A DNA stretch of 32,544 nt, taken from Myxococcales bacterium. Its GTDB lineage: Bacteria > Myxococcota_A > Polyangia > Fen-1088. Under the pieces are notes generated by a model that searched no databases, was not told the DNA's origin, and saw only the letters and a program-made list of their open reading frames with translations. Location of the stretch: assembly GCA_003136095.1 (NCBI GenBank), contig PNBO01000217.1:37184-69727 (forward strand), written 5' to 3'. Positions 5,805 through 32,544 of the stretch are shown here, piece after piece; the first letter of the stretch is position 1, and each line of letters starts with the position of its first letter. Made by a program: the position numbers and the translations under genes.

Positions 5805-5822
5805 ACTGGACGATTAGACAAA

Positions 5823-6234: not shown

Positions 6235-6306
6235 GAGGACGAACGACTCTGCGGCCGGCGGTTCGCACGGGCGCCCCCGGGGAGGTGCTAGATTCCACAC
6301 CGAACG

Positions 6307-6759: not shown

Positions 6760-6775
6760 GGGCTCTGGCCATTTG

Positions 6776-7467: not shown

Positions 7468-7653
7468 GATGGCTCAGCTCCAGATGGTTACGTGATAGCC
7501 GTTAGAGCCAATCGGTGACCGAGGGATTCGTGGCCGGCCCAACGCAGTCACAGGCAGCGTGAATCCTCCGGCCGGGTTCTGGCTCTTACCTGGCGAGGCA
7601 CACATGGGCATCTTCTCTCATTCTGGCTCTGACTCATCACAAGGAGCGTGAAC

Positions 7654-8028: not shown

Positions 8029-8096
8029 CCTTTTCAACGGATGGTGCCCGCGCGCGGATCGCGCGCCGCTTGCGGGTGTGGTAGGGATCCATCGAA

Positions 8097-9077: not shown

Positions 9078-9094
9078 CCCCGGAAATCGGAGCC

Positions 9095-11303: not shown

Positions 11304-11316
11304 GGAATCTGCCTAC

Positions 11317-11637
11317 TCAGGGGTCGAACGGTTCCAGATGGATGGCATCGCTGGGACAGCAGGGAATGCACAGGCCGCAGCCATCGCAGCGCTCGACACA
11401 GATTGCGATGCGCGCCGGCTCGCAGGGGACCTCGTAGGTCATGCAGTACTTCACGCATTTGGCGCAGCAGAAATTCATGGGCTCCTCGATCGCGTGATGC
11501 GGACAAAACGAGACACACATCCCGCAGGAGGAACACTTGGTCGCATCGAGAACGGCCCTTTGCACGGCCGTCGCCGTGTTGTTTCCTTCCACCATCTTCG
11601 CGGCGAGGGTGCCGTCAGCTCCCAGAAACTCACTCAT
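11317..11637 (-). CDS. Cys-rich 4Fe-4S ferredoxin-type protein
   Basis: A 106-residue protein. Two classic 4Fe-4S motifs are present, CSSCGMCVSFCP (Cys35-45) and CDGCGLCIPCCP (from Cys84). Between them lies a third cluster, CCAKCVKYC (Cys57-65), plus Cys72 and Cys80. Sixteen cysteines in 106 residues are more than two clusters need, so a third metal site is possible. The first 30 residues (MSEFLGADGTLAAKMVEG) are not ferredoxin-like and may contact a partner. It overlaps the stop of the gamma-carbonic-anhydrase-like gene (ATGA). It probably transfers electrons for an enzyme in or near this operon; the partner is unknown. Confidence 0.88.
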   Translation of the reverse strand: MSEFLGADGTLAAKMVEGNNTATAVQRAVLDATKCSSCGMCVSFCPHHAIEEPMNFCCAKCVKYCMTYEVPCEPARIAICVERCDGCGLCIPCCPSDAIHLEPFDP

Positions 11638-12194
11638 CGCGGTTGCCCCCCGCCCCCTGACCGCGGTTGCGCGATTTCGACCATCGCGCCTTCGGCGTAG
11701 CGTCTGGCCAAATCGACATAGAGGTCCTTCGCCGTGTGAGTCATCATGTGATGGCGTTCGTCGGTATCCCCGATGACTCGTACTGGGACGCCGACCGCAA
11801 CCTTGCCCGGCGGGATTTTCTGGTGATTCTTCACGAGTCCCATCTCGCCCACGATGGCGCCGGCGCCGACCTCGGCGTAGTCACTGATCACGGCGCGCAT
11901 GCCGATGACGGCGCCGTCCGCGACCGAGGCATTGTGAATCATTGCGCCGTGGCCCACGGTCACGCGCGCGCCAATGTGCGTGCACTCGTCCGGACGAGAA
12001 TGAACGATGACGCCTTCTTCGATGGCGGTCTCGTCGCCGATCTCGATGGCTCCAAAGTCGCCGCGCAGGACGGCGCCGTGGCCGACGTAACAACGCTCCC
12101 CGATGGTCACCTTGCCGATGATCTGGGCCGACGGGGAGACGTAGGTCGTCGCCCCGATGCTCGGCCGATGATTCTCAAATGCGTAGAGGGGCAA
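11634..12194 (-). CDS. Gamma-carbonic anhydrase-like hexapeptide-repeat protein
   Basis: A 186-residue left-handed beta-helix protein built of hexapeptide repeats (IGKVTI, IGERCYVG, GAVLRGD, IGDETAIEEG and later repeats). It has the three metal-ligand histidines of the gamma-CA family at His65 (VIVHSRPDE), His82 and His87 (VGHGAMIHNA). A C-terminal helix (AKDLYVDLARRYAEG) completes the fold. Such proteins bind Zn or Fe; many are true carbonic anhydrases, others are of unknown activity. It is translated together with the ferredoxin (overlapping stop and start) and follows trmO by 51 nt. Confidence 0.9.
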   Translation of the reverse strand: MPLYAFENHRPSIGATTYVSPSAQIIGKVTIGERCYVGHGAVLRGDFGAIEIGDETAIEEGVIVHSRPDECTHIGARVTVGHGAMIHNASVADGAVIGMRAVISDYAEVGAGAIVGEMGLVKNHQKIPPGKVAVGVPVRVIGDTDERHHMMTHTAKDLYVDLARRYAEGAMVEIAQPRSGGGGQPR

Positions 12195-12245
12195 CTGCGA
12201 TCTTCTCCAGTAGATGGGCTGAGGTAACCGTGAGCAAACGGCAAG

Positions 12246-12779
12246 TCATGAATTCTCTCCAGGATCCGAACCAGCCTTGCGATGAAATCGCTCATCCGCG
12301 ACGATGCGATTCTCACCGGCGGCATCGAACCAGCCGGCCTTCGCTCCGGGATGGGCGTCGAAGTCCGGCACGTAGGGCTTGATGTCGAGAAGTGGCGTGC
12401 CATCGAGAATGTCGATATCGGCCACGTGCAGCACCCGCCCCTCCCGGCGAACCAACCGGACCACGGATATGCCGATGGGGTTGGGCCGGCAGGGCGAGCG
12501 GGTGGCGAAGAGGCCGTGCTCCCGCGTGTCGCGGTACGGGGTGACGCGGGTCTGGAATCCCTTCACCCGATCCATCCAGTAGATCAGCCACAAGCGCGCG
12601 AAGCCTTCGATGTCGTCCAGCGCGGCAGCGTAAGCATCGTCGACCAGGATTTGGCCCTCGGCGCCCTGGGCATAGCAGGGCTGAATCGGAGTTCCCGACG
12701 CCTCGGCGAAGGGGCTGTGGATGACCCCAACGGTGCGAAGCTTGACGGCTGCAAGCTGTGAATCCTGATCGCGTCCCAT
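12246..12779 (-). CDS. trmO: tRNA (N6-threonylcarbamoyladenosine-37-N6)-methyltransferase TrmO (TsaA family)
   Basis: A 177-residue protein with the TsaA beta-barrel fold and its signatures: VGVIHSPF near the start, GLFATRSPCRPNPIGIS in the middle and LDGTPLLDIKPYVPDFD toward the end. TrmO methylates t6A37 in tRNA-Thr with SAM. TsaA-like proteins in anaerobes often sit in metal-cofactor gene clusters and may have other roles, so the tRNA function is likely but not certain here. The ATG at 12779 is chosen because the domain begins soon after it and upstream codons overlap the NifX-like gene in another frame. It starts 17 nt after that gene. Confidence 0.88.
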   Translation of the reverse strand: MGRDQDSQLAAVKLRTVGVIHSPFAEASGTPIQPCYAQGAEGQILVDDAYAAALDDIEGFARLWLIYWMDRVKGFQTRVTPYRDTREHGLFATRSPCRPNPIGISVVRLVRREGRVLHVADIDILDGTPLLDIKPYVPDFDAHPGAKAGWFDAAGENRIVADERFHRKAGSDPGENS

Positions 12780-12796
12780 GGCCGATGCCCTGATCT

Positions 12797-13168
12797 CTAG
12801 ACGTGACCGTGGCGGTGGCCACCGCACGCCATGCCCGGCTGCATTGGCGCAAGCGTCCCAGCCTTGAAGGACTCGATAGTCGCCATGACCGTGGGGTGCG
12901 CCGCCCGGAAAACGCTGATTCCCGCCGCCATGAGCTTGTTGAGGGCGCCCATGCCGATGCCACCCACCACGATGCCGTCGAGAATCTCGCCCTGGAGGGA
13001 AGCAAGCGGCGTGCACATGCCGTGACTGTGATGCTGATTGCGATTGACGATTGCGCGGCAATCTCCGCTGTCGGTATCCACGATCAGGAAAGCTGGCGCA
13101 GAGCCAAAGTGAGCACAGACCTCACTCTGCAAGCCTTGGTCTTCGTTCACTGGAATACAAATACGCAT
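12797..13168 (-). CDS. NifX/NifB-type dinitrogenase iron-molybdenum cofactor-binding family protein
   Basis: A 123-residue single-domain protein: MRICIPVNEDQG at the start, HFGSAPAFLIVD (the conserved HFG motif), DGIVVGGIGMGALNKLMAAGI, and a Cys/His-rich tail (MACGGHRHGHV) that could bind metal. The family includes NifX, NafY and many proteins outside nitrogen fixation that carry Fe-S or Mo cofactors. No nif genes are in the window. The ATG at 13168 has AGGAG upstream. It is the second gene of the operon after the DUF134 regulator, a pairing common in anaerobic and metal-reducing bacteria. Confidence 0.9.
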   Translation of the reverse strand: MRICIPVNEDQGLQSEVCAHFGSAPAFLIVDTDSGDCRAIVNRNQHHSHGMCTPLASLQGEILDGIVVGGIGMGALNKLMAAGISVFRAAHPTVMATIESFKAGTLAPMQPGMACGGHRHGHV

Positions 13169-13223
13169 TGTCTTTTCTCCTTGAGAGTTGGCATTTCTGG
13201 TTTTGCGCGAAGGCGCGTTCAGG

Positions 13224-13553
13224 TCATTTCTTCTTGTCGTGCAAATCGCAGCACCGCTGGCCTTCGCGTTGAACGGGGCCACCTTCGATACGCAGGGCCT
13301 TGCCGTGCACGAGGGCGTCCGCCACCTTGCGATGAGCCGACCCGACGATCCGACTGAAGGTCGGGCGCGACACGCCCATCTGCTCGGCGGCTTGCTCCTG
13401 GTAGAGCCCGCCGAGGTCGGCCAGTCGAATCGCCTCGAACTCGTCGAGGCTCATGACGACCAGCTCGAGCTCGGGCATGGGAATGCCCGTGGGCTTGAAA
13501 ACCGATGCGGCCGGTTTCCCGGCGATGAGTCGGCAGCAGAACGGTCTTGGCAT
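13224..13553 (-). CDS. DUF134 (UPF0251) DNA-binding protein
   Basis: A 109-residue protein. It starts MPRPFCCRLI, then has FKPTGIPMPELE, SLDEFEAIRLADLGGLYQEQ, and the helix-turn-helix AAEQMGVSRPTFSRIVGSAHRK. The end is KALRIEGGPV plus a Cys-containing tail (QRCCDLHDKKK). This order matches DUF134, a predicted regulator family. The ATG at 13553 is chosen because the family starts MPRP and AAGG lies upstream; a longer frame reaches back into the promoter. It heads the operon, and its promoter contains a palindrome that could be its own operator, so autoregulation is likely. Fe-S or metal sensing through the cysteines is conjecture. Confidence 0.9.
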   Translation of the reverse strand: MPRPFCCRLIAGKPAASVFKPTGIPMPELELVVMSLDEFEAIRLADLGGLYQEQAAEQMGVSRPTFSRIVGSAHRKVADALVHGKALRIEGGPVQREGQRCCDLHDKKK

Positions 13554-13571
13554 CCGAATACCTTGGGACCA

Positions 13572-13599
13572 ATTATGGACATATGTGCACAACTGTCAA
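13572..13599 (-). promoter_or_regulatory. Sigma-70-type promoter with palindromic operator, upstream of DUF134 gene
   Basis: On the minus strand a perfect -35 (TTGACA, 13594-13599) and a near-perfect -10 (CATAAT, 13572-13577) are separated by 16 bp, so transcription should begin near 13565 and leave a leader of about 12 nt. The spacer holds an inverted repeat at 13578-13597: outer arms GACA/TGTC and inner core TGTGCACA, with two mismatched base pairs between core and arms. A regulator bound there would block RNA polymerase. The DUF134 protein is the obvious candidate; the plus-strand XRE-type regulator starting about 140 bp away is another. Confidence 0.7.
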
Positions 13600-13735
13600 G
13601 GAGTATCTCCCTTCTCCGGCGCCCATCGCCCCGAGTCCCGTCGTCGGGTGAGTCCATGACCTTTCGAATGTAAATTTTAGACGACGCACGGTGTGGCTGG
13701 TTGACATGCAGGTCGGGTTCAGGAATCCTGCCAGG

Positions 13736-14872
13736 ATGGACACGCGGGTTCGCACCGCCGTCAGGGCCACGCGGCAGCGGCTGGGAATGCAACAGCAGGT
13801 TCTGGCCGAGGCCATTGGCGTCAGCCGGCAGACACTCAGCCTGATCGAGGCTGGCGAAACCGTCCCTTCCACGCAGATTGCCCTGGCCCTGGCGCGAGAG
13901 TTGCGATGCCGTGTGGAAGATCTCTTCAGCCTGCATCGCGATGGACAGGTCATCGAGGCCGAGCTCGCCAGTGAAGCGGAGCCAAGCGCCAGAGGTGCCC
14001 GCAAGCGGCGAGTGTCGCTGGGGTGGGTCGCGGATCGCTGGGTTGCCCGCGCGCTCGAAACCGACGAAGCCTTGGCACTCGGAACGCCGGCCGACGGAAT
14101 CGCCACCCTGTCGACCGAGAAGGGCAAAACCAAGGCGCGGGTTCGCCCCCTGCGTGACGTGGAATCGCTCCAACGCAATCTCCTGGTCGCCGGGTGCGAT
14201 CCAGCCCTTGGCGTGCTTGGGCGCCACCTGGAAGAGCGCTTCCGTGGTCCCCGCCTGCATTGGATCGAGAAGGCCAGCCGGCCCGCGCTAGAGGAGCTGG
14301 CCCAAAAACGCGTCCACATCGCTGGGATGCATCTCCTGGGACAGGGCAGTGCCGGTGACAACGCCACGGCTGTGCGGGAGCGGTTCGGCTCGGAGCCCAT
14401 GGTGCTGGTCACGCTGGCTTCCTGGGAACAGGGGTTCGTGAGCCGAGCCGAGCGGAAATACCGTAGCGCCTCGGACATGGAACGAAAAGGCACCCGCATC
14501 ATCGCGCGCGAGGCGGGCGCCGGCGCGCAAGAGTTGCTGGAAGCCGTGTTTCGCAAAGCGGGCCGCGCGTGGAAGCACGACACGCCGGTGGCGATCGCGC
14601 GTGGGCATCGGGCGGTGGCGCAGATGGTGGCCATGGGCATCGGCGATGTCGGCGTCGCCACGCGATCCGCCGCGGCGAGCTTCGGGCTGCACTTCGAGGC
14701 GCTCGCGGAAGCGCGATTCGATCTCGTCTTCCCGGCTGCCCTGGCCGCGCAGCCGCAGGTGCAGGCGCTACTTGATTGCCTAGCGAGCGCGCGGTTTCGC
14801 CAGGACATCGCCGGCATGACCGGCTATGAAACCGCTCGCACGGGAATGGCATGCACGGAGGCGCAGGCTTGA
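13736..14872 (+). CDS. XRE-family regulator fused to a periplasmic-binding-protein-like (molybdate-type) domain
   Basis: A 378-residue protein. Residues 6-65 are an XRE-type helix-turn-helix (VLAEAIGVSRQTLSLIEAGE). A variable linker follows, then from about 145 a PBP-like domain (SLQRNLLVAGCDPALGVL, IAGMHLLGQG, DTPVAIARGHRAVAQMVAMG, GDVGVATRSAAASFGL). This fusion is typical of molybdate/tungstate-responsive regulators in place of ModE. It probably senses substrate and controls the downstream modABC set. ATG 13736 is preferred, with AGGA at 13721-13724; upstream in-frame starts at 13691 (GTG) and 13706 (ATG) lack ribosome sites. The stop overlaps the TTG start of modA. Confidence 0.88.
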   Translation: MDTRVRTAVRATRQRLGMQQQVLAEAIGVSRQTLSLIEAGETVPSTQIALALARELRCRVEDLFSLHRDGQVIEAELASEAEPSARGARKRRVSLGWVADRWVARALETDEALALGTPADGIATLSTEKGKTKARVRPLRDVESLQRNLLVAGCDPALGVLGRHLEERFRGPRLHWIEKASRPALEELAQKRVHIAGMHLLGQGSAGDNATAVRERFGSEPMVLVTLASWEQGFVSRAERKYRSASDMERKGTRIIAREAGAGAQELLEAVFRKAGRAWKHDTPVAIARGHRAVAQMVAMGIGDVGVATRSAAASFGLHFEALAEARFDLVFPAALAAQPQVQALLDCLASARFRQDIAGMTGYETARTGMACTEAQA

Positions 14873-15672
14873 ATCGTCGCGCGGCTCTCCGCTTCTTATT
14901 GGTTGCGCTGTGCCTGGCCACGCCGCTTTGGGCAACGCCGGCCGTTGCGGCCGAGGCGCAAGAACTGACCGTGTTTGCGGCGGCCTCGCTACGCGAGGTC
15001 TTCCAGGCCCTCGCGCTGACCTTCGAAAAGCAGCACCCAAACGTCAAGGTCGGCTTCAACTTCGCCGGTAGCCAGGATCTTCGCGTGCAGATTGCGCACG
15101 GCGCCAAGGTGGACGTGTTCGCCTCGGCCGACTGGAAGAACATGAAGCTTCTGGCAAACCAGGGCATGGTCCTTTCTCCGGCGGTATTCGCGCGCAATCT
15201 GCCGGTCGTGGTCGTGCCGAAGAACAACCCGGCCAAGGTCGCCAACTTCTCCGATCTGCCCAGGGTCACCCACTTGGTTCTGGGCGCGTCCGAAACGCCG
15301 ATCGGCGCCTACACGGATGCCATCCTGGCCGCGGCCGAGAAACTCCACGGCAAATCCTTCGGGGAGAAGGTGCGGGCGAGCGTGCGCTCGCGCGAGCTGA
15401 ACGTGCGCCAGGTGTTGACCAAGGTGGCCTTGGGTGAAGGCGACGCGGGCATCGTCTACCGGACCGACGCGCTGACCATGCCCGACAAGGTCCAGGTCAT
15501 CGAGATCCCGAGCGCGCTCAACGTCGTCGCGGAATATCCGATCGCGGCGCTCAAGGCCGCGCCCCGTCCCGACCTGGCGCGCGAGCTCGTGAAGTTGGTG
15601 CTATCCAAGGAGGGGGAGAAGGTTCTGAGCGCGGCGGGGTTCAACGCGGCCGAAGCGCAGGCGAAAAAGTGA
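14869..15672 (+). CDS. modA: Molybdate ABC transporter substrate-binding protein ModA
   Basis: A 267-residue protein. A signal peptide (residues 1 to about 28, ending PAVAAEA) precedes a type II periplasmic-binding domain with LTVFAAASLREVF, VGFNFAGSQDLRVQI, VDVFASADWKNM, RVTHLVLGASETPIGAY and GIVYRTDAL, all ModA signatures. The two Ser contacts for the oxyanion lie in AAASL and AGSQ. TTG at 14869 is chosen as start because GGAGG sits seven bases upstream (14857-14861); an ATG at 14851 would add six residues. The start overlaps the regulator's stop and the end overlaps modB. Molybdate or tungstate is the likely ligand. Confidence 0.93.
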   Translation: MNRRAALRFLLVALCLATPLWATPAVAAEAQELTVFAAASLREVFQALALTFEKQHPNVKVGFNFAGSQDLRVQIAHGAKVDVFASADWKNMKLLANQGMVLSPAVFARNLPVVVVPKNNPAKVANFSDLPRVTHLVLGASETPIGAYTDAILAAAEKLHGKSFGEKVRASVRSRELNVRQVLTKVALGEGDAGIVYRTDALTMPDKVQVIEIPSALNVVAEYPIAALKAAPRPDLARELVKLVLSKEGEKVLSAAGFNAAEAQAKK

Positions 15673-16502
15673 GAGTCCAGCTCCTCTCCCGAGCGAGAAG
15701 TCGGCATCTCTATGGCGCCGTCATGGTCGGCCTGGGCGGAATTCTGCTGCTCTTCCTCGTGCTCCCCTTCGTGGCCTTGCTGCTCGACGGCGGCCCCGAT
15801 TCCATCCTGCGCGGGCTCGGCTGCGCGTTGACCTGGCCGGCGCTGCGCCTCAGCCTGGGCACGAGCCTCATTTCGGTTGCACTGGTCGTGCTTGGCGGCA
15901 CGCCGCTGGCCTGGTGGCTGGCGCGATCCCGCTGGCGCTCGGCGCGCTGGTTGGAGATCCTGCTGCAACTTCCCGTCGTGATTCCACCCGCGGTGGGCGG
16001 CATCGCCCTGCTCCTCGCCTTTGGCCGGCGCGGGCTGTTCGGCGAAACTCTGGAGCGCCTGGGCTGGACGCCCGCCTTCAGCTCCGTCGCGGTGGTCATG
16101 GCCCAGATCTTCGTTTCGGCTCCCTTCTACATGCAGGCCGCGGTACAAGCCTTCGGCCGCCTGGATCGCAACCTGCTGGCGGTCGGGCGCAGCCTGGGGG
16201 CCTCGCCGCCGCGCCTCTTCTTCCAGGTTGCCTTGCCGCTCGCCCGGCCATGGCTGATCGGTGGCGCGGCGATGACCTGGGCACGAGCGCTCGGGGAATT
16301 CGGCGCCACCTTGATGTTCGCCGGCAACATGACGGGCAAGACGCAGACCCTGCCGCTCGCCATCTACACGGCCCTGGAGCTCGACATTCACACCGCGCAG
16401 GCCCTGTCGCTCTTGCTGGTCGCTTTCGCCTTCGCGCTGCTGCTCTTCCTCCGGCGATTCAATCGCACCGTGGAAATCGGGCGAAGGCCGGCAGCATCAT
16501 GA
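15669..16502 (+). CDS. modB: Molybdate ABC transporter permease ModB
   Basis: A 277-residue inner-membrane protein with five or six helices and the EAA loop AVGRSLGASPPRLFFQVALPLARP, where the ATPase docks. It has the ModB signatures PLAWWLARS, LQLPVVIPPAVGGIALL and ARALGEFGATLMFAGNM. The GTG start at 15669 overlaps the TGA of modA (GTGA), and the stop overlaps the modC ATG (ATGA), so the three are made in step. It forms the channel for molybdate taken from ModA. Confidence 0.95.
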   Translation: MRVQLLSRARSRHLYGAVMVGLGGILLLFLVLPFVALLLDGGPDSILRGLGCALTWPALRLSLGTSLISVALVVLGGTPLAWWLARSRWRSARWLEILLQLPVVIPPAVGGIALLLAFGRRGLFGETLERLGWTPAFSSVAVVMAQIFVSAPFYMQAAVQAFGRLDRNLLAVGRSLGASPPRLFFQVALPLARPWLIGGAAMTWARALGEFGATLMFAGNMTGKTQTLPLAIYTALELDIHTAQALSLLLVAFAFALLLFLRRFNRTVEIGRRPAAS

Positions 16503-17299
16503 CCGCCGCTCCCGTTCGCCGGCTCTCGGTCGCGGTTGAAGCCGCGCTGGGGCCATTTCTGTTGCAAGCCACGCTGGAGGTTGGCACCGAGCCCCTGGCG
16601 CTGGTAGGGCCCAACGGCTCCGGCAAGACCAGCGTGCTGCTGGCCATTCTGGGGCTGCTCAAGCTTGAACGCGGCCGCATCGCACTGGGGGACGAGATTC
16701 TCTTTGACCGGGACCGAACCATCGATCGGCCCACGGAGGAGCGCCACCTTGCCTATCTGCCCCAGGATTTCGGACTCTTCCCGCACCTGACGGCGGCGCA
16801 AAACGTGGCGTTCGCGCTCGCGTGTGGGCCGGACCTGGCGAGCCGAAAGCAGCGGCGTAGCCAGGCCATGGCGTGGCTCGACCGCTTTGGACTCGGCAGC
16901 GTGGCCAACCGGAACCCATCGCAGCTTTCCGGCGGGGAGCGGCAGCGCATCGCCCTCGCCCGCGCCATGGCCTCGTCACCGAAGGCATTGCTCCTCGATG
17001 AACCCACGGCTTCGCTCGACGTCGAGGCCCGCCTCGAGGTGCGGGCGTTCCTCGCCGAATCCATCCGCTCGCTCGGCTTGCCCACCGTGCTGGTCACCCA
17101 CGATGTCATGGATGTGGAAGCGCTCGCGGGGCGCGTGGCGGTGCTCGAGAAGGGGCGAGTCGCGGCTTGCGGCCCGCTCGGCGACATCCGCAAAACCCCA
17201 CCCACGCTGTTTGCCAGCCGACTCTTCTCCTCGCCCGCGCCGGTGGGCGCCGACGCAAATCCAGGCCCGCTCAACGACGGTCAGTTCCGTCACAACTGA
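16499..17299 (+). CDS. modC: Molybdate ABC transporter ATP-binding protein ModC, short form
   Basis: A 266-residue ABC ATPase with Walker A GPNGSGKT (37-44), Q-loop LPQDFGLFP, signature LSGGERQ (143-149), Walker B ALLLDEP (163-169), and the switch His201 (VTHD). After the ATPase domain about 50 residues remain, too few for the C-terminal TOBE/Mop molybdate-sensing domain of E. coli ModC. Substrate-dependent trans-inhibition at the ATPase is therefore probably absent, and sensing may rest with the upstream regulator. The ATG at 16499 overlaps the modB stop. The next gene follows after 17 bp. Confidence 0.94.
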   Translation: MTAAPVRRLSVAVEAALGPFLLQATLEVGTEPLALVGPNGSGKTSVLLAILGLLKLERGRIALGDEILFDRDRTIDRPTEERHLAYLPQDFGLFPHLTAAQNVAFALACGPDLASRKQRRSQAMAWLDRFGLGSVANRNPSQLSGGERQRIALARAMASSPKALLLDEPTASLDVEARLEVRAFLAESIRSLGLPTVLVTHDVMDVEALAGRVAVLEKGRVAACGPLGDIRKTPPTLFASRLFSSPAPVGADANPGPLNDGQFRHN

Positions 17300-25714: not shown

Positions 25715-26071
25715 CTAGCTCCGACGGTGGCGAGCTCGCGGCGAGACTATCTGCCCGCGGCGAAAACTGGCCACGGCGTCTTCCGCCTTGCCGGAGATGC
25801 CGGTGACGACCCGAATCCCAAGTCGCTCCGCGTTCGGCAGATAGGCGCGGTTGAAGGCTCCGCAAAGCAGCGTCCGCACCCCCATGGCAGCAAGGTGCGC
25901 GATGCGGCGTGGAAGCCAGGGCTCGCCCAGTCCAACCACGTTGCGCCGGATCTCCCGCCCATTCTCGAAGCTGACCACGAGGACCTGCTCGGCAAAGCAG
26001 AACCTGGGCGAGACCTCCTCACCGAAGAGGGCGATGGCAACACATGTCGTCACGGCTGCGGCCAAGCTCAA
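25715..26071 (-). CDS. NifX-like (dinitrogenase iron-molybdenum cofactor family) protein
   Basis: A 118-residue protein, second member of this family in the window. It has ALFGEEVSPRFCFAEQVLVV (the HFG region is changed to RFCF), GVRTLLCGAFNRAYLPNAERLGI and VTGISGKAEDAV. The divergence at the ligand loop suggests it no longer binds the same cofactor or uses Cys instead of His. It starts with TTG at 26071, overlapping the stop of the sigma-54 activator (TTGA), so both are made from one transcript; a GTG at 26053 is an alternative start. The setting suggests it modulates the activator or carries a cofactor for it. Confidence 0.75.
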   Translation of the reverse strand: MSLAAAVTTCVAIALFGEEVSPRFCFAEQVLVVSFENGREIRRNVVGLGEPWLPRRIAHLAAMGVRTLLCGAFNRAYLPNAERLGIRVVTGISGKAEDAVASFRRGQIVSPRARHRRS

Positions 26072-27525
26072 GCAAGCCGCGTACCGCGTTTACCCGAGCG
26101 CCCAGCCGAGACTAGGCCGTGCTCGCGCATGCGACGCCAGAGCGTGTTGCGGCCGATGCCAAGGCCGCGCGCGGTCGCGGTGCGGCTCCAGCCGTGGGCC
26201 GCCAGGGCCTCGCGCAGCTTCTGCGCCACGGGGTCGGCGGTGGCTCTCTCGTTCGCTGCCTTGCCCGACGCCTGCAACACGATTCTCTCCGACGGCCTCC
26301 GCCGGCTCGCCAGCAAGTCCCCATCCATTGCAGCGCGCTCCTTGGCGCGCAGGATCTCCGTCGGCAGATGGCCGAGCTCGATGCGGTGCTCGTGGCACAG
26401 GACGAAGGCCCTCTCGATCAGGTTCTGTAGCTCGCGCACGTTGCCGGGATAGTCGTACTCGCAGAGCGCGGCCATGGCCCTCGGCGCCACCTCGCGGATC
26501 GGTTTTCCGGTCTTGAGCGCCTGCAGACGAACGAAATGGTCCACCAGGAGCGGAACGTCCCCGCGCCGTTCCCGCAGTGGGACGAGCGCGATGGGCACGA
26601 CCCTGATCCGGTAGTAGAGATCCTGGCGGAACTTGCCCTCGGCCACCATGGCCGCCAGATCGCGGTTGGTGGCGGCCAGCACGCGCACGTCGACCTTCAC
26701 CGGCCGCGAGCTGCCCAGGGGCTGGACCTCGCCTTCTTGCAGCACGCGCAGCAGCTTGAGCTGGAACGCCGGGGTGATATCGCCGATCTCATCGAGCAGG
26801 ATGGTGCCGCCGTCGGCCAGCACGAAGTGGCCGGGCTTGTCGCGGCGGGCGTCGGTAAAAGCGCCCCGCAGATAGCCGAACAGCTCCGATTCCAGCAAGC
26901 TGTCGGGAAGCGCGCCGCAGTTCACGCGCAGGAAGGGCTTGTCCCGCCGGGCGCTGAGACTGTGGATCGCGCTCGCCACCAGCTCCTTGCCGGTGCCGCT
27001 CGGCCCCTCGATGAGCACGGGCGCGTCCGAGGCCGCCACGTCGGGCAGCAGCTGGAACAGCTCTTTCATGGCCGGGCTGCCGCCCACGATGTTCTCGAAC
27101 GAGCCCTGGTTTTTCAGCTCGTTGCGCAGGCTCTCGATGTCGGAGAGATCGCGGAAGATCTCCACACCGCCGAGCAGCCGGCCACCGCTGCGCAAGACCG
27201 CGGTGGAAACCGCGATGGGCACGGGCAGCATCGAAGCATTGAGCACGTCGATACGCACGTCGCGCAGCGGTCGCCCCGTGTCGAGCGTCTCCCGCAGCGC
27301 GCAGCCGCGCTGGCAGATGCTGGCGCGAAAGACCTCGTAGCACTTCTTGCCCACGGCCTGACGACGGGAGAACCCGGTGATCCGTTCGGCCTCGGCATTG
27401 AACGAAGTCACCCTGAAGTCCTGGTCGACGGTGAAGACCCCCTCGTGGATGCTGTCGAAGATCAGCGAATGCAACGCCTCCGGTGGTGGTGGCCCGGATG
27501 CGTCTGGCTTGCGTGACCTGATCAT
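26068..27525 (-). CDS. PAS-domain sigma-54-dependent transcriptional activator (enhancer-binding protein)
   Basis: A 485-residue activator. A PAS domain (about 20-135) contains a Cys cluster CYEVFRASICQRGC (Cys62, Cys71, Cys75) that could bind Fe-S or sense redox. The AAA+ domain (about 145-380) has Walker A GPSGTGKE (174-181), Walker B TILLDEIGD (241-249) and arginine-finger region FRQDLYYRIRVVP. The sigma-54 contact loop reads GAFTDA (221-226), not the canonical GAFTGA. A Fis-type helix-turn-helix ends the protein (WSRTATARGLGIGRNTLWRRM). It should act on the -24/-12 promoters nearby. Its start lies 11 bp from an inverted repeat (27536-27562), so it may also control itself. Confidence 0.93.
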   Translation of the reverse strand: MIRSRKPDASGPPPPEALHSLIFDSIHEGVFTVDQDFRVTSFNAEAERITGFSRRQAVGKKCYEVFRASICQRGCALRETLDTGRPLRDVRIDVLNASMLPVPIAVSTAVLRSGGRLLGGVEIFRDLSDIESLRNELKNQGSFENIVGGSPAMKELFQLLPDVAASDAPVLIEGPSGTGKELVASAIHSLSARRDKPFLRVNCGALPDSLLESELFGYLRGAFTDARRDKPGHFVLADGGTILLDEIGDITPAFQLKLLRVLQEGEVQPLGSSRPVKVDVRVLAATNRDLAAMVAEGKFRQDLYYRIRVVPIALVPLRERRGDVPLLVDHFVRLQALKTGKPIREVAPRAMAALCEYDYPGNVRELQNLIERAFVLCHEHRIELGHLPTEILRAKERAAMDGDLLASRRRPSERIVLQASGKAANERATADPVAQKLREALAAHGWSRTATARGLGIGRNTLWRRMREHGLVSAGRSGKRGTRLA

Positions 27526-27535
27526 GTCTCACAAG

Positions 27536-27570
27536 TGGAACATAACGGTCCATTTTGTTCCAGATTGAAA
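27536..27570. promoter_or_regulatory. Candidate enhancer/operator: TGGAACA-N13-TGTTCCA plus a third half-site
   Basis: TGGAACA (27536-27542) and TGTTCCA (27556-27562) form a 7-bp perfect inverted repeat. A second imperfect partner for the latter, TGAAACA, follows three bases later. The set lies between the divergent activator gene and the thioesterase gene, with its centre about 65 bp upstream of the -24 element of the thioesterase sigma-54 promoter. That is where an upstream activating sequence would be expected. The bound protein is most likely the activator encoded next door. The site also adjoins that gene's start codon, so autoregulation is plausible. Confidence 0.55.
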
Positions 27571-27612: not shown

Positions 27613-27628
27613 CGGCACGCATATTGCT
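27613..27628 (+). promoter_or_regulatory. Sigma-54 promoter (-24/-12) for the thioesterase gene
   Basis: The sequence is CGGCACG-N4-TTGCT, matching TGGCACG-N4-TTGCW at 11 of 12 fixed positions, with GG (27614-27615) and GC (27626-27627) exactly 10 bp apart. Transcription should start near 27639, leaving a leader of about 65 nt before ATG 27703. That makes the GTG at 27643 an unlikely start. Confidence 0.75.
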
Positions 27629-27702
27629 GCATACTGACCAGCGTGATCCCTCAGACCGTTACCACCGCCCACCCTGCCCCTCGCGGACCCGCCTTGCGCG
27701 CG

Positions 27703-28092
27703 ATGGCCCATCCTCGCTGCGTCGCCTGCTCACCGCAGAGCGAGCGAGGATTGCGGCTGGATTTCGAGGACACGGGCGACGGCGGTGTCCGCGCAACGTT
27801 CGACTGCGCAACCGCGTTCGAGGGCTACCCGGGCTATCTGCACGGGGGCATCATCGCCACCATCCTCGACAGCGCCATGGCCAATTGCCTGTTCGCGCAG
27901 GGCTACCAGGCCGTGACCGCGGAGCTCACGGTCAAGTTTCGAGCTCCGGTGGTTTTGGAACGCGCAACCGTCACGGAAGCCCGCGCCACGCGCGACCTGT
28001 TCCCGCTCTTCCTCATGGAAGCCAACCTGATTCAGGACGGTCAAACCAAGGCCACGGCCACGGCGAAGTTCATCATTTCGAAGGGACTTTAG
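27703..28092 (+). CDS. PaaI-type hotdog-fold thioesterase
   Basis: A 129-residue protein with a hotdog domain: MAHPRCVACSPQSERGLRLDF at the start, LHGGIIATILDSAMANCLF (the PaaI-family helix with HGG) and a final strand TKATATAKFIISKG. It should hydrolyse an acyl- or aryl-CoA, and the substrate is unknown. ATG 27703 is preferred because the conserved part begins there and the sigma-54 start point would leave the upstream GTG (27643) at +5. No clear ribosome site is visible for either. It is divergent from the sigma-54 activator and carries its own -24/-12 promoter, so it is probably a direct target. It is the only gene of the sigma-54 set without an export signal. Confidence 0.85.
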   Translation: MAHPRCVACSPQSERGLRLDFEDTGDGGVRATFDCATAFEGYPGYLHGGIIATILDSAMANCLFAQGYQAVTAELTVKFRAPVVLERATVTEARATRDLFPLFLMEANLIQDGQTKATATAKFIISKGL

Positions 28093-28118
28093 AGAGACGC
28101 TGTGCGCTGGCTTCGCGC

Positions 28119-28134
28119 TGGCAAGCGAGTTGCA
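28119..28134 (+). promoter_or_regulatory. Sigma-54 promoter for the secreted 155-residue protein gene
   Basis: TGGCAAG-N4-TTGCA matches the consensus at 11 of 12 fixed positions, with GG (28120-28121) and GC (28132-28133) 10 bp apart. Transcription should start near 28145, 45 nt before the ATG. No strong inverted repeat was found at the expected upstream distance, only a single TGGAAC half-site near 27955 inside the thioesterase gene. Confidence 0.75.
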
Positions 28135-28189
28135 GTGTAGCCAGCAGGTTCTCTAGCATTTGTCCCTTTAAGGGAGAAAGAGGCGTTCG

Positions 28190-28657
28190 ATGCTCATCAA
28201 GACGACACTGGCATTCCTGTTTGCGGTTTTCATCTGCCCAAGCCCGCAGGCCGTTGCGCAAGGATCTCGTGGCGGCGGTGCAGGCGGCGGTGGCTGGGGA
28301 CCGGGATCCCAGTATGGACGCATGTACGACCCGAAGACGTTCGGGACCACCGATGGAGAAATCATCAAGGTCGAGAAGATCACGCCGGTGAGAGGAATGT
28401 CCCGCGGCGTTCACTTGGTGCTCAAGACCGACAAGGGCGAAACCATTCCCGTGCACCTCGGTCCCGAGTGGTACATCGACAAACAGGAGATCACCTTCAA
28501 GCCGGGAGACAAGGTGCAGATACGCGGCTCCCGTATCACCTTCGAGGACAAACCAGCGATCATCGCCGCCGAGGTCACGAAGGACGGTCGGACGCTGCAG
28601 CTACGCGACAGCAACGGCGTGCCGGTCTGGGCCGGCCGGGGTGGCCGAGGCCGATAG
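28190..28657 (+). CDS. Secreted protein of unknown function with OB-like C-terminal part
   Basis: A 155-residue protein. A signal peptide (residues 1 to about 24, ending AVAQG) leads to a Gly-rich segment (GSRGGGAGGGGWGPGSQYG) and a beta-rich domain of repeated short strands: GEIIKVEKITPVRGMSRGVHL, TIPVHLGPEWYIDKQEITFKPGD, KVQIRGSRITFEDKPAIIAAEV. The order resembles small exported OB-fold or SH3-like binding domains, but no family is recognised with confidence. The end is again Gly/Arg-rich. A ribosome site (AGGGAG) precedes the ATG. It has its own sigma-54 promoter and is followed after 65 bp by a Cys-rich protein gene. Confidence 0.8.
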   Translation: MLIKTTLAFLFAVFICPSPQAVAQGSRGGGAGGGGWGPGSQYGRMYDPKTFGTTDGEIIKVEKITPVRGMSRGVHLVLKTDKGETIPVHLGPEWYIDKQEITFKPGDKVQIRGSRITFEDKPAIIAAEVTKDGRTLQLRDSNGVPVWAGRGGRGR

Positions 28658-28722
28658 ACCACGCGCTTCCAGCTCCAGCCGCGCCGTTGGTCACGCCCGT
28701 CGTTTTGCAAAGGAGAGAGGCA

Positions 28723-29358
28723 ATGGCCCCACGATCTACCCACTCGATGCAGATGAGGCTTGCAGATGTCCTGTTCTTCTTCGGGCTCTTCGTGCTCGCC
28801 CTCCCGGCCGCGCGCGCGACGCTGGCATCGAGCCCGGTCGCGCCGCCCGTTCCCCCCGCCAGTCTGTCCGCCAAGCAACGCCAGCTCGTCGAGGAGCTGC
28901 ACGCCGCCTACCATTCCTACGAATGCTGTTCGGACAGCTTGGCCTCGTGCCTCGGCAGAAAGCCTGTCTGCACGCTCGTGACGCGACTCGAACGTGCCAT
29001 CACCCGGATGGTCGCGGCGGGCATGACCAGGCCCGAGATCGAGGCGGCCCTCGCGCACCGGCAGGCCACCATGAGGTCCGACCAGCCGCGCGCGAAGATC
29101 GCGCTGGACGACCGCTTCCGGGCGGGAAACGCCACGGCGGCCGTGGCGCTGGTCGTCTACGCTTGTCCACGCAACGAGGCCTGCGCCAAGCTGATCCCCG
29201 ACCTCTACCGCGAGGTCACGGACGGCCGGCTCAAGGACAAGGCGGAGCAAGAAGGTGACGAGGACCGACGACAGCGAGCCCACGTGTCTCCTGTCTCACG
29301 GTTGCCTGGGGTCGAACCGGCCAGCCCTCATGCGATAGACGTAATGCATCCAACGTAG
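28723..29358 (+). CDS. Exported Cys-rich thioredoxin-like protein, probably truncated
   Basis: A 211-residue protein. A hydrophobic signal (about 12-32) is followed by a helical Cys-rich part (SYECCSDSLASC at 66-76, Cys83, MVAAGMTRPEIEAALAHR). Then comes a segment that resembles the start of a thioredoxin-like fold (AAVALVVYACPRNEACAKLIPDLYREVTDGRLKDK, Cys148/Cys154). After residue 178 (about 29255) the sequence turns into charged and low-complexity residues and the fold does not continue, in this or other frames. It may be a gene cut by deletion that runs into a spurious tail. AAGGAGAGAGG precedes the ATG at 28723. It probably shares the sigma-54 transcript of the preceding gene. Confidence 0.65.
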   Translation: MAPRSTHSMQMRLADVLFFFGLFVLALPAARATLASSPVAPPVPPASLSAKQRQLVEELHAAYHSYECCSDSLASCLGRKPVCTLVTRLERAITRMVAAGMTRPEIEAALAHRQATMRSDQPRAKIALDDRFRAGNATAAVALVVYACPRNEACAKLIPDLYREVTDGRLKDKAEQEGDEDRRQRAHVSPVSRLPGVEPASPHAIDVMHPT

Positions 29359-29659
29359 CGGCGGCTCGTCAGCCAAGATTCAGGAGACGAGCGCAGGTCA
29401 CGACGACCTCGCCGCACACCCCCGACATGAAGCGTGGCGCGCTCTCGAAACGCGCGCTGGCGACCACCGCTTTCCTGGTGCGCGTGGACAATCGGGGTCA
29501 CGTGGCCAATCGTCATGTTTTGCATTCGGTCACGGTCGGACAGAGTAGCCCTGACTCGTTGATGTCCGGCACCCCGAGCCTCGCTGGCACTGGCGATGCA
29601 CGACCGAAAGGAAACCGGCCTTCACATGACCCCGGAAATTCGCTACCCGGTGAAGGAAG
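29359..29659 (+). other. Intergenic region carrying a sigma-54 promoter
   Basis: No gene was recognised here. Frames that cross it have no ribosome sites and no family pattern. It contains the -24/-12 promoter at 29585-29600. About 75 bp upstream of it are CCAATCG (29506-29512) and CAATCG (29489-29494), which resemble one half of the palindromic enhancer found at 30373 and 31854. The match is weak, so enhancer function is conjecture. Confidence 0.5.
29585..29600 (+). promoter_or_regulatory. Sigma-54 promoter for the 90-residue exported protein gene
   Basis: TGGCACT-N4-ATGCA, with GG (29586-29587) and GC (29598-29599) 10 bp apart, agrees at 10 of 12 fixed positions. The expected start is near 29611, 49 nt before the ATG at 29660. 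Confidence 0.65.
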
Positions 29660-29932
29660 ATGAAGACAATCGCAACACTTGCGTTCCTCGCTATCGGCTT
29701 TGCCGCACCGGCATTCGCCGACGACAGCCAATCCAGCGCGTCGCCACCCGATCAGTCGCAGGCCGCCACGCCAACAACACGCTTCGACTTTGATGACGAT
29801 CAGGTTGAAGGCGACATCCAGCGGCCCGACGGAGAGCTAATCACCTCCATCGAGCAGGCGAAGGAAGAGAGTCTAATCGAGATCCGCAGGAACTTTGTGC
29901 CGGAGATCGTCAAGATGCTCGAGGATCTCTAA
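29660..29932 (+). CDS. Small exported protein of unknown function
   Basis: A 90-residue protein. A signal peptide ends AFA-DD (residues 1 to about 20). A Ser/Gln/Pro-rich linker and an acidic patch (FDFDDDQVEGD) follow, and the C-terminal segment SLIEIRRNFVPEIVKMLEDL forms an amphipathic helix. This C-terminal part looks conserved, but I cannot name the family. GAAGGAAG precedes the ATG. It has its own sigma-54 promoter and ends in front of a strong hairpin that it shares with the facing lipoprotein gene. Confidence 0.8.
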   Translation: MKTIATLAFLAIGFAAPAFADDSQSSASPPDQSQAATPTTRFDFDDDQVEGDIQRPDGELITSIEQAKEESLIEIRRNFVPEIVKMLEDL

Positions 29933-29951
29933 CGTCAGCGACCACGCGCAT

Positions 29952-29987
29952 GGAGATGGCCGCTGCTAGCGTCGGGCGGCCATCTCC
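29952..29987. terminator. Bidirectional hairpin between convergent genes
   Basis: GGAGATGGCCG (29952-29962) pairs perfectly over 11 bp with CGGCCATCTCC (29977-29987), with a 14-nt loop. It lies between the stops of two facing genes (29932 on the plus strand, 30004 on the minus strand). No T-run follows, but the stem is strong and the position is what a shared terminator would have. Confidence 0.65.
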
Positions 29988-30003
29988 GAACTTCACGAGA
30001 CCG

Positions 30004-30252
30004 CTACCTCTCGCTGACCGTGGCGAGCCCGAGAGCCGCAGCGTGCATACGCTTACGGACTTCGGCGACTGGATCCCTTGCCGGTGAATCCAAGGTGGCA
30101 CTAGCCATCTCCCGCTGGGCTTGCCTGGTTTCCTTTTCGGCCGCGGCAAGGTGAGCCTCCGCGCTCATGTCGTCCGGCCGGACCTGATGGGTGCATCCAA
30201 CCGCGTAGGCACAGCTCCACAACGCGAAAATCGAGCATCGACTTGGCTTCAT
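30004..30252 (-). CDS. Small lipoprotein
   Basis: An 82-residue lipoprotein: signal MKPSRCSIFALWSCAYAVGC with Cys20 as lipid site, then a short helical region rich in Ala, Glu and Arg (MSAEAHLAAAEKETRQAQREM). It may form a coiled coil, and no family is recognised. ATG 30252 is chosen because GGAGGGAAGAG precedes it; upstream codons in the frame look like noncoding sequence. It diverges from the larger lipoprotein gene at 30487, and both have sigma-54 promoters placed symmetrically around a shared palindrome. Confidence 0.8.
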   Translation of the reverse strand: MKPSRCSIFALWSCAYAVGCTHQVRPDDMSAEAHLAAAEKETRQAQREMASATLDSPARDPVAEVRKRMHAAALGLATVSER

Positions 30253-30295
30253 GACTCTTCCCTCCACTGCTCTTGGACAACGACTGAATGGAGGC

Positions 30296-30311
30296 TGCAT
30301 TCGTCGTGCCA
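30296..30311 (-). promoter_or_regulatory. Sigma-54 promoter for the 82-residue lipoprotein gene (minus strand)
   Basis: On the minus strand TGGCACG-N4-ATGCA agrees at 11 of 12 fixed positions, with GG (30309-30310) and GC (30297-30298) 10 bp apart. The centre of the shared palindrome (30379.5) is 70 bp upstream of its GG. Expected transcription start is near 30285. Confidence 0.8.
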
Positions 30312-30368
30312 CGGCCCAGATGGGCCCCAGCCGAATGGCCTGTCGTCCCCAGCGAAGGGGTAGGGCCT

Positions 30369-30401
30369 ATTTCCCAATCGATTGGGGAATTCCTCCCATT
30401 T
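30369..30401. promoter_or_regulatory. Palindromic enhancer-like element, copy 1 (shared by two divergent sigma-54 promoters)
   Basis: The core CCCAATCGATTGGG (30373-30386) is a perfect 14-bp palindrome centred at 30379.5. The 33-bp block matches 31850-31882 at 28 positions. Its centre is 70 bp from the -24 GG of both the minus-strand promoter (30309) and the plus-strand promoter (30449), so it sits exactly midway. It is probably the binding site of a sigma-54 activator. The sequence differs from the TGGAACA/TGTTCCA site at 27536, so the activator may be a different one. Confidence 0.75.
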
Positions 30402-30447
30402 CATAGTTATGGGACGGAGACGACGAGTCCGGTGGTATGCCCAACCT

Positions 30448-30463
30448 TGGCAGGGTATATGCA
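30448..30463 (+). promoter_or_regulatory. Sigma-54 promoter for the His-rich lipoprotein gene
   Basis: TGGCAGG-N4-ATGCA agrees at 10 of 12 fixed positions, with GG (30449-30450) and GC (30461-30462) 10 bp apart. Transcription should start near 30474, so the leader is only about 13 nt and just includes the ribosome site (GGGAAGGAG). Confidence 0.75.
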
Positions 30464-30486
30464 GCGAGGACCGGGAAGGAGTAGCC

Positions 30487-31353
30487 ATGGGATCAGAGTG
30501 CATACGTCTCGGCGCGCTCGTGGGCGTCGTCGTCTCGATCTGCGGCTGCGCCGCCAGCACGAAACAGAGGCCGGTGGCCCGCACGGCGGCCGACACCGTG
30601 CCCGAGGACGCCTTCGTCGCGGATGTTCTGCGGCATCATCGACATCACCATTTTGGCGGCACCTTGTTGCTCATCACGATGAGCCTCGACACGTTGGGAT
30701 TGCCAGCCGACGAGCAACTCCGCATTGAAAAGATTCAATCGGACCTGATCGACAAGATGCGCCCCGCCAGTCAGGCCGAACGGTCCGTCGTGGCGCGGCT
30801 CGCCGACGGGGTTTCCGCGTCCGAGATCGACCGCACTCAGGTCGACGCAGCGCTAGCAGAGCTCGCGACCGCATCCGCCGCCATGCACGACGCCTCGATC
30901 GGTGAGCTGAATCGACTCCACGACGCGCTCACACCGCCAGAGCGAGCGGCACTGGTAGATAAGCTGGATGCCCATTGGGAGCTGTGGAAACAAGCCAACA
31001 GCGGCGAGCGAAGCCAGCTCGCGACCATCGGCCAGGAGATCGGACTGACGGCCCCGCAGATGGAGAAGGTCAGGAGGGAGCTTGCGGCAACGACCTCGGA
31101 CTCGCCGCTGCGCAAGGGCGAAGTCGAAGCCCACCTGCGAAACTTCGGCAAGGCATTCCAGGCCAACGACTTCGATGCCAGGAGGCTGCTCGGCGCCGCC
31201 AGCGCGAATCGTCAAATGGCTGAGTGGGGCGCGAGCCGGCTTGTGTCGTTTTGTCAGGCAGTCAATCCCGTGCTCAACGACGAACAGCGCCGTACGCTCG
31301 TGGCTCTACTGCTGGAACATCTCAATCATGACGAAGGCGGAGCGAAGGAGTAA
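30487..31353 (+). CDS. Lipoprotein with His-rich start and Spy/CpxP-like helical repeats
   Basis: A 288-residue lipoprotein. The lipobox is SICGC (Cys21). A His cluster (LRHHRHHHFGG, about 49-58) could bind metal. The rest is alpha-helical, with repeated hallmarks of LTxxQ/Spy-type periplasmic proteins (LPADEQLRIEKIQSDLIDKM, LTPPERAALVDKLDAHWE, LTAPQMEKVRRELA, LNDEQRRTLVALLLEHL). Such proteins act as chaperones or metal sensors in the periplasm. The ATG at 30487 has GGAAGGAG upstream. It is co-directional with the next lipoprotein gene, only 7 bp away, and both lie behind the sigma-54 promoter. Envelope or metal stress is the likely theme. Confidence 0.82.
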   Translation: MGSECIRLGALVGVVVSICGCAASTKQRPVARTAADTVPEDAFVADVLRHHRHHHFGGTLLLITMSLDTLGLPADEQLRIEKIQSDLIDKMRPASQAERSVVARLADGVSASEIDRTQVDAALAELATASAAMHDASIGELNRLHDALTPPERAALVDKLDAHWELWKQANSGERSQLATIGQEIGLTAPQMEKVRRELAATTSDSPLRKGEVEAHLRNFGKAFQANDFDARRLLGAASANRQMAEWGASRLVSFCQAVNPVLNDEQRRTLVALLLEHLNHDEGGAKE

Positions 31354-31360
31354 TTCCATC

Positions 31361-31696
31361 ATGCGAAGATGTTGGCCTGACTTCCGACCCAGGCGGCTGG
31401 CGATCTTGACGTTTGGCCTTTCCCTCGGTGGCTGCTTCGCCGACGCCGGATACGCGGTCACCGTGGATGGTGCCTATGTGGATGAGCCGCCACCCGGTTT
31501 CATTGCCACCGCTCCCCCCTTCTACTACGAGGGGCGTCCCACCTACTGGTATGGCGGCCATTGGCACTACCGCGATGCGGAGCATTGGAGCCACTACCAT
31601 TCCGAGCCAGCCCCTCTGCGGGGTTACCGGATGAACATGGGCGGTCCCCGACGCGCTCCGCCATTCTACGAGCAATCCCCACGAGGCCGTCGATAG
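31361..31696 (+). CDS. Small lipoprotein rich in aromatic residues and His
   Basis: A 111-residue lipoprotein with lipobox LSLGGC (Cys25). The mature part is short, with many Tyr, Trp, Pro and His residues (PPFYYEGRPTYWYGGHWHYRD, EHWSHYHSEP) and an Arg-rich end. No domain is recognised. The Tyr/Trp/His pattern resembles small exported proteins that often accompany envelope stress genes. The ATG at 31361 lies 7 bp after the preceding stop, with GAAGGAG upstream, so the two are one transcription unit. The stop codon is part of the hairpin at 31694-31710. Confidence 0.8.
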   Translation: MRRCWPDFRPRRLAILTFGLSLGGCFADAGYAVTVDGAYVDEPPPGFIATAPPFYYEGRPTYWYGGHWHYRDAEHWSHYHSEPAPLRGYRMNMGGPRRAPPFYEQSPRGRR

Positions 31697-31710
31697 CCTG
31701 GACCAGGCTA
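31694..31710 (+). terminator. Hairpin at the end of the two-gene lipoprotein unit
   Basis: TAGCCTG (31694-31700) and CAGGCTA (31704-31710) form a perfect 7-bp stem with a 3-nt loop that begins at the stop codon. No T-run follows, so termination is plausible but weak. Confidence 0.4.
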
Positions 31711-31849
31711 GCGTCGTCCCGGTTTCGCGGTGGTGGCGATTCGCTTAACGCTGGACTCCTCACCAAAGAAGGCAGGAGATGTTCCATTGATAAGCTGTTC
31801 CACCAACAACCGCGTAGGCACCCCTACTTGTGAGGCAGGTGAAAGGAGA

Positions 31850-31882
31850 ATTTCCCGATCGATTTGGGAATCCGTCCCGTTT
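31850..31882. promoter_or_regulatory. Palindromic enhancer-like element, copy 2
   Basis: This 33-bp block matches copy 1 (30369-30401) at 28 positions. The inner palindrome is ATCGAT with flanks CCC and GGG, centred at 31860.5. The centre is 71 bp upstream of the -24 GG of the next promoter (31931), the same spacing as in copy 1. It is probably bound by the same activator. Confidence 0.72.
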
Positions 31883-31929
31883 CTGCATCGACCCCGCTCC
31901 ACGAGGGACAGCACATCTGGCGGTCACCC

Positions 31930-31945
31930 TGGCACAGAGTTTGCT
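31930..31945 (+). promoter_or_regulatory. Sigma-54 promoter for the partial lipoprotein gene at the window end
   Basis: TGGCACA-N4-TTGCT agrees at 11 of 12 fixed positions, with GG (31931-31932) and GC (31943-31944) 10 bp apart. Expected start near 31956. Confidence 0.8.
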
Positions 31946-32044: not shown

Positions 32045-32544
32045 ATGATCCTGACTAGGAGACTGCTCCCAATTGTTCTTTGTTGTGCCGGGTTTGCGGT
32101 CTTGCTCGTTGGCTGTGCGGTAAGTCGCGCGGTAGGAGCAGACGCAACCATACCTTCAGCCGCTCAATACGCCGCTATCGCAGACGACGTTTGCACGGGA
32201 ATGCCCGCCAAGGAGCGGGCATTGGGACTTCTCGCATATCGGGAGGACATCGCGCGCGTTGCGCCGCTCTTTGACGATGGCCCATTGGGAAAGGTTGAGT
32301 ATAGTGATAGGGGGGCTGTTATCAGGCTACGCGCGACGCCAGGCATGTCCGTGCCGTGGCTCGAACGGGTCAATCGTTGCCACGCCGCGCTGGTAGCGTC
32401 CGGGCGGTTGGTCGGCAAAGAGTCGAGGGAGGATCCATTTCTCGTTCCTGGCGCGACCCTTTGGGCGGCCGAGGTCTACGGTGGCTACTACGATCTGTCG
32501 GTTAGGAGCGCCGATGACGCCTCAGCGGTGGAAATCCTGCGGCG
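32045..32544 (+). CDS. Lipoprotein of unknown function (3' end outside window)
   Basis: At least 166 residues are visible, open to the right edge. A lipoprotein signal (VLLVGC, Cys24) leads to a mixed alpha/beta sequence: IADDVCTGMPAKERALGLLAY, then RGAVIRLRATPGMSVPWLERVNRCHAAL, then DPFLVPGATLWAAEVYGGYYDLSVRS. Two Cys residues in the mature part may form a disulfide. I recognise no family. The ATG at 32045 has a perfect AAGGAGG (32031-32037). It lies behind the sigma-54 promoter and copy 2 of the palindromic element, so it should be coregulated with the lipoproteins at 30004 and 30487. Confidence 0.85.
   Translation, partial: MILTRRLLPIVLCCAGFAVLLVGCAVSRAVGADATIPSAAQYAAIADDVCTGMPAKERALGLLAYREDIARVAPLFDDGPLGKVEYSDRGAVIRLRATPGMSVPWLERVNRCHAALVASGRLVGKESREDPFLVPGATLWAAEVYGGYYDLSVRSADDASAVEILR

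Follow-up and report, generated by a model that had tools for sequence, protein, structure and literature searches.

The window analyzed here is a 32,544 nt stretch of the Myxococcales bacterium assembly GCA_003136095.1 (contig PNBO01000217.1, positions 37,184 to 69,727 of the forward strand), which forms the end of a 69.7 kb contig (C294) in a 6.03 Mb draft genome that is 85% complete. Near its right end, six candidate -24/-12 (sigma-54) promoter sites follow a minus-strand gene for a sigma-54 activator. With a probability of roughly 0.55, the locus is read here as two abutting sigma-54 circuits, in which an OrpR-like redox module (circuit A) would stand beside a lineage-specific envelope-lipoprotein module (circuit B). 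The sites are listed below with the gene that follows each, the counterparts of the first two in a genome of the same genus (G002), and scores from an approximate -24/-12 matrix, the weights of which follow the published consensus and the scores of which are relative.

27613 to 27628, plus strand: sigma-54 site 1, CGGCACGCATATTGCT, before the thioesterase gene; score 16.0; G002 counterpart CGGCATGCATATTGCT.
28119 to 28134, plus strand: putative sigma-54 site 2, TGGCAAGCGAGTTGCA, before the MamS-like gene; score 16.1; weakly supported; G002 counterpart TGGCGAGCAAGCCGCG.
29585 to 29600, plus strand: putative sigma-54 site 3, TGGCACTGGCGATGCA, before the CglF-like gene; score 12.2, the weakest of the six.
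30296 to 30311, minus strand: sigma-54 site 4, TGGCACGACGAATGCA, before the gene for an 82-amino-acid lipoprotein; score 15.8.
30448 to 30463, plus strand: sigma-54 site 5, TGGCAGGGTATATGCA, before the Spy-like operon; score 15.2.
31930 to 31945, plus strand: sigma-54 site 6, TGGCACAGAGTTTGCT, before the terminal lipoprotein gene; score 19.6, the best of the six.

All six sequences were read back from the window at the places where a sequence-only reading had put them, with a GG-GC spacing of 10 bp in each and one mismatch (four sites) or two mismatches (two sites) to TGGCACG-N4-TTGCW. Five of them scored 15.2-19.6 with the approximate matrix, against 13.2 or less in the rest of the window. 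The 29585 site was outscored by four other window sites and by sequence alone is at background level, so the claim that none as good lay elsewhere in the window held for five sites and failed for this one; membership as a -24/-12 site is accordingly strong by score for five and weak for 29585. The genome background was obtained by pattern scans with a reversed-pattern control. The fairer density test used TGGCACG-N4-TTGCW at no more than one mismatch, a pattern that came from the sequence-only reading, and gave 81 matches in 6.03 Mb against 47 for the reversed control; four of these fell here where 0.06 were expected (Poisson 3.7e-7, or about 1e-3 after allowing for the genome scan). The degenerate pattern YGGCANNNNNNWTGCW, which was chosen post hoc to fit all six sites, gave 107 genome matches against 46 reversed, with six in these 4.3 kb (0.07 expected), and no further window site fits it. 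By both scans the density is exceptional against the genome background. Each site lies upstream of a gene start, with 23-99 nt between the site end and the start codon (14 or 74 for the thioesterase, depending on the start chosen). As had been proposed, the first gene after the site encodes an exported protein or a lipoprotein in five of the six cases, as judged by direct reading of signal peptides and lipoboxes, and a 4HBT thioesterase in the remaining one. RpoN is encoded in the genome (contig C165), as are activator-like proteins (21 matches at E<=1e-60), and the six sites would act as promoters. A further sigma-54-like match is present on the same contig (C294:34965, positions 14966-14981 of locus L044), upstream of a gene for a BON-domain protein (14103-14870) with an apparent export signal; a PRC-barrel gene comes after it.

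The genes and the dyad in the left part of the locus are as follows.

25715 to 26071, minus strand: Nitro_FeMo-Co (ORP-like) domain protein, the gene for which adjoins the activator gene on its downstream side (PF02579, E=8.8e-5, narrowly missing the curated cut-off).
26068 to 27525, minus strand: OrpR-like sigma-54 enhancer-binding protein (Pfam Sigma54_activat 2e-67, PAS_9, HTH_8), at the left edge of the set as previously noted.
27536 to 27562, no strand: candidate enhancer of the OrpR-like activator, TGGAACA-N13-TGTTCCA, between the activator gene and the first promoter; conserved in G002.
27643 to 28092, plus strand: PaaI/4HBT hotdog thioesterase (PF03061, 3e-7), with its start at GTG 27643 or ATG 27703.
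28190 to 28657, plus strand: exported MamS-like protein of 155 amino acids (NCBIfam MamS 1.4e-7, below cut-off).
28723 to 29358, plus strand: exported protein that appears to be a shortened DsbA-like thiol protein; it shares 38% identity with only the N-terminal portion of a 284-amino-acid DsbA-like protein of G002.
29660 to 29932, plus strand: small exported CglF-like protein of 90 amino acids (NCBIfam gliding_CglF 6.6e-17; 61 bits, where the cut-off is 90).

The activator combines a PAS domain carrying C-x8-C-x3-C, an AAA+ domain with the GAFTDA loop, and a Fis-type helix-turn-helix. The cysteine motif was invariant across ten aligned relatives. Among 80 relatives from public genomes, which were the best-scoring ones and therefore do not give unbiased fractions, the motif was found in 80/80, GAFTDA in 66/80, and a FeMo-co-type gene nearby in 63/80; relatives occur in Deltaproteobacteria, Planctomycetes, Acidobacteria, and others. 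By these shared features the window activator is assigned to the OrpR/DVU2106-like family. We take OrpR to carry an Fe-S cluster and to respond to redox; on the grounds of membership in this Cys-PAS family, the window activator is probably a cytoplasmic protein that senses redox state or oxygen via an Fe-S cluster. DVU2106 of Desulfovibrio vulgaris has been listed with GAFTDA (PMC4641369), and it activates a pair of divergent sigma-54 operons by way of palindromic sites and is a repressor of its own gene (PMC3897727). The window locus resembles the OrpR/orp system of this species in its single-component GAFTDA activator, the adjoining divergent sigma-54 operon, the nearby ORP gene, and the palindrome between activator and operon, a likeness to the OrpR enhancer that is one of position. 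The orp operons encode MinD/Mrp-type ATPases and ferredoxins, whereas a thioesterase and exported proteins are found here, and the locus continues with another kind of putative enhancer and three additional promoters.

Conservation in G002, the one congener with an orthologous locus, delimits circuit A. Its activator ortholog is 85% identical and syntenic, the Nitro_FeMo-Co ortholog likewise lies directly after the activator gene, and next to it, in divergent orientation, come the thioesterase and MamS-like genes (the MamS-like protein is 65% identical and syntenic). G002 also has an orp-type gene set beside a second activator copy. When the intergenic regions between activator and thioesterase were compared, the conserved islands were the dyad and the promoter CGGCAYGCATATTGCT, with much less conservation in the flanks; TGGAACA-N13-TGTTCCA occurs as a single genome copy at 0-1 mismatch. 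Upstream of two related activators (loci L119 and L121), dyads of the form GRAAC-N5-GTTYC occupy comparable places, GAAAC-N5-GTTTC lying at -77 and -80 from the start of the PAS-coding sequence. The thioesterase and MamS-like targets recur beside this activator family in other phyla: thioesterase homologues were found at five OrpR-like activator loci (L118, L121, L142, L150, and L172), that of L121 about 65 bp after its own sigma-54 site, and a MamS-like homologue lies inside an orp-type operon at Acidobacteria locus L182. Since the 28119 site is poorly kept in G002, transcription of the MamS-like gene may begin at the first promoter (27613). Under the proposed mechanism, the activator would bind the dyad at 27536-27562 and turn on the divergent 27613 promoter, giving the thioesterase and then the MamS-like and DsbA-like exported proteins as output, and its own gene and the downstream ORP-like gene may be under its control as well. 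The DsbA-like protein (211 amino acids) stops at the onset of the thioredoxin fold, just past the motif position, at which CPRNEAC replaces CARCPFC; decay or repurposing of a thiol oxidoreductase may account for it.

Circuit B would comprise the three right-hand sites (30296, 30448, and 31930) and the features below.

30004 to 30252, minus strand: lipoprotein of 82 amino acids, like the N-terminal module of a larger lipoprotein family.
30370 to 30390, no strand: shared palindromic enhancer candidate, copy 1, TTTCCCNATCGATTNGGGAAT, midway between the two divergent promoters.
30487 to 31353, plus strand: Spy/CpxP-type His-rich lipoprotein of 288 amino acids (PF13801 Metal_resist 2.7e-9).
31361 to 31696, plus strand: W111, a Trp/Tyr/His-rich lipoprotein (WYGGHWHYRD), the conserved downstream partner of the Spy-like gene.
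31851 to 31871, no strand: shared palindromic enhancer candidate, copy 2, an exact match to copy 1.
32045 to 32542, plus strand: terminal lipoprotein of at least 166 amino acids, truncated by the contig end; it corresponds to the C-terminal module of a Myxococcota lipoprotein family.

The palindrome has three genome copies, all on this contig (30370, 31851, and one 35 kb off), and its reversed control has none. From its center to the -24 GG, the distance is 69.5 bp for the 30296 minus-strand site, 69.5 bp for the 30448 site, and 70.5 bp for the 31930 site; random placement of the six sites gave such a spacing triple in 0/400,000 trials. The rarity of the palindrome and its spacing are independent facts. 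The integration host factor consensus was not enriched, and none was found between the sigma-54 sites and the enhancers. The first lipoprotein of circuit B resembles the N-terminal module, and the last the C-terminal module, of a single protein found in other orders, where homologues of the terminal lipoprotein carry a fused N-terminal module. The match of the 82-amino-acid lipoprotein to the N-termini of the L110 and L111 proteins is marginal (42-47% over 34-45 amino acids, E about 2e-4 in a small database). Strong sigma-54 sites precede the called starts of two of the fused-lipoprotein genes by about 65-100 bp (L111 8137 and L105 7584); in the genome studied here, the genes for paralogues of the terminal lipoprotein (contig C31) are not closely preceded by any sigma-54 site with a score of at least 11. 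The Spy-like and W111 families were paired in the family genomes inspected. Under the proposed mechanism, the palindrome between the divergent promoters and the second copy before the third promoter would act as enhancers about 70 bp from the -24 element, and the 82-amino-acid lipoprotein, the Spy-like/W111 operon, and the terminal lipoprotein would be switched on together. The activator of circuit B may be the same OrpR-like protein acting through a different type of site, but another enhancer-binding protein of the genome is a slightly more likely candidate.

Several observations weigh against the two-circuit reading. The upstream regions of the 28119 and 29585 sites were searched for a shared site and carry neither enhancer motif. 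Circuit B is conserved in no relative; a one-mismatch palindrome occurs in 1/289 other genomes, with no sigma-54 site near it. Spy-W111 pairs elsewhere, including a 64% identical copy in genome G043, have no close upstream sigma-54 site, and sigma-54 control of the pair therefore looks lineage-specific. The palindrome was spotted by eye in these upstream regions, and the probability of its spacing is therefore not selection-free. The third copy (C294:32076-32096, positions 1501-1521 of locus L039) lies between convergent gene ends and has no sigma-54 site at the expected distance. This copy, together with the confinement of all copies to one contig as for a plasmid or element site, would fit another role for the palindrome (the operator of a repressor, a site for partition or segregation, or a mobile-element mark), with real sigma-54 sites nearby only by coincidence. 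We consider that improbable, given that the palindrome lies at the same distance of 70 bp from three promoters, whatever their orientation, where sigma-54 enhancers are usually found. The third copy is flanked by a redox-protein operon and a receiver-only gene; near it, a minus-strand frame (L039 2063-2614) has the cysteine-rich repeat CCGDPCCGNP, and its product is possibly a metal-binding protein.

The sequence-only reading had taken the set as a single local regulon with the activator encoded at its edge. The sites, their density, and the activator were borne out, but the dyad was found only at the first promoter, three promoters share the other palindrome, and two have neither. One regulon, in which the OrpR-like activator drives all six promoters via two kinds of enhancer site, is possible but unlikely. 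The activator is adjacent, both site sets lie within 4.4 kb, and two TGTTCCA half-sites occur 135-151 bp upstream of the sixth promoter, on account of which an activator reading both site types stays in consideration; however, the palindrome is unlike the conserved dyad of the activator, the 28119 and 29585 promoters have neither type of site, and G002 has the activator ortholog but lacks the circuit-B Spy-like and terminal lipoprotein genes. It is highly improbable that chance, in a genome rich in GC, explains most of the sites and that the genes use housekeeping or other promoters. About half of the genome-wide matches are indeed background by the counts given above, and the 29585 site is no better than matches in coding regions, but chance would have to place six sites at gene starts in 4.3 kb, with the first conserved and a constant enhancer spacing for three. 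ZraR/ZraP, the zinc and envelope response of enterobacteria, places a Spy-family periplasmic protein under sigma-54 control, and a ZraSR/ZraP-like metal or envelope stress response would fit a locus that combines a sigma-54 activator with a Spy/ZraP-type His-rich lipoprotein. The regulator class differs, as the activator here has a PAS and not a receiver domain and no histidine kinase was recognized among the gene calls of the locus; with the Spy-like pair also occurring elsewhere without sigma-54 control, such a response is very unlikely. The metal stress suggested earlier is compatible with the Metal_resist/Spy-like lipoprotein, whereas the Cys-PAS family of the activator points to redox or oxygen. 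For the two circuits favored here, family resemblance would suggest redox or oxygen as the signal for A and envelope or metal protection for B, with envelope protection under redox or metal stress as the presumed physiological role.

Among myxobacterial systems, NmpRSTU of Myxococcus xanthus (PMC11841059) is likewise a sigma-54 regulon with dyad enhancers at several promoters and low oxygen as its proposed signal, but NmpR is a receiver-domain regulator with the site GCGCA-N5-TGCGC. No such site was found near the promoters at no more than one mismatch, and the one exact window match lies inside the activator gene. RpoN is reportedly essential in M. xanthus (PMC12316311). Sigma-54-rich stress islands recur at the level of the class (L112, L113, L115, L105, and L111), with several sites within about 10 kb that precede or adjoin stress genes, a MamS-like gene, or the fused lipoprotein; they differ in holding Hsp20, universal stress proteins, and P-type ATPases and in a site density lower than here. 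The three islands L112, L113, and L115, which come from one genus, hold universal stress proteins and a P-type ATPase, and in them the MamS-like gene adjoins, in a back-to-back arrangement, a sigma-54 site that precedes an Hsp20 gene. The locus had been judged to look undescribed, which is true by half: in other genomes of the class, sigma-54 sites also cluster in stress islands alongside envelope proteins, universal stress proteins, and Hsp20, the activator family is known (OrpR/DVU2106), and the whole locus is a variant of known sigma-54 stress islands.

Sulfur and redox genes abound in the left part of the window (2680-17299), among them those for rhodaneses, a CoA-disulfide-reductase-like protein, a thioredoxin, a ferredoxin, and a second FeMo-co-type protein, with a molybdate-type transporter further right; names in the left part were given by eye except where Pfam was run. 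The OrpR-like activator family is widespread across many phyla and little studied. If the two-circuit reading is true, the locus would be a compact example of the Cys-PAS/GAFTDA, FeMo-co-linked activator family gaining envelope targets. Tentatively, and with considerable doubt, an OrpR-like, redox-sensing activator may have been recruited in this lineage from its customary Fe-S/orange-protein targets to envelope lipoproteins via a second, newly evolved palindromic enhancer that would fire divergent promoters from a central position, 70 bp away from either one. The two-circuit reading would also give a set of uncharacterized lipoproteins a precisely defined enhancer motif at a constant distance, and it would tie the thioesterase and MamS-like proteins to the OrpR-like activator family.

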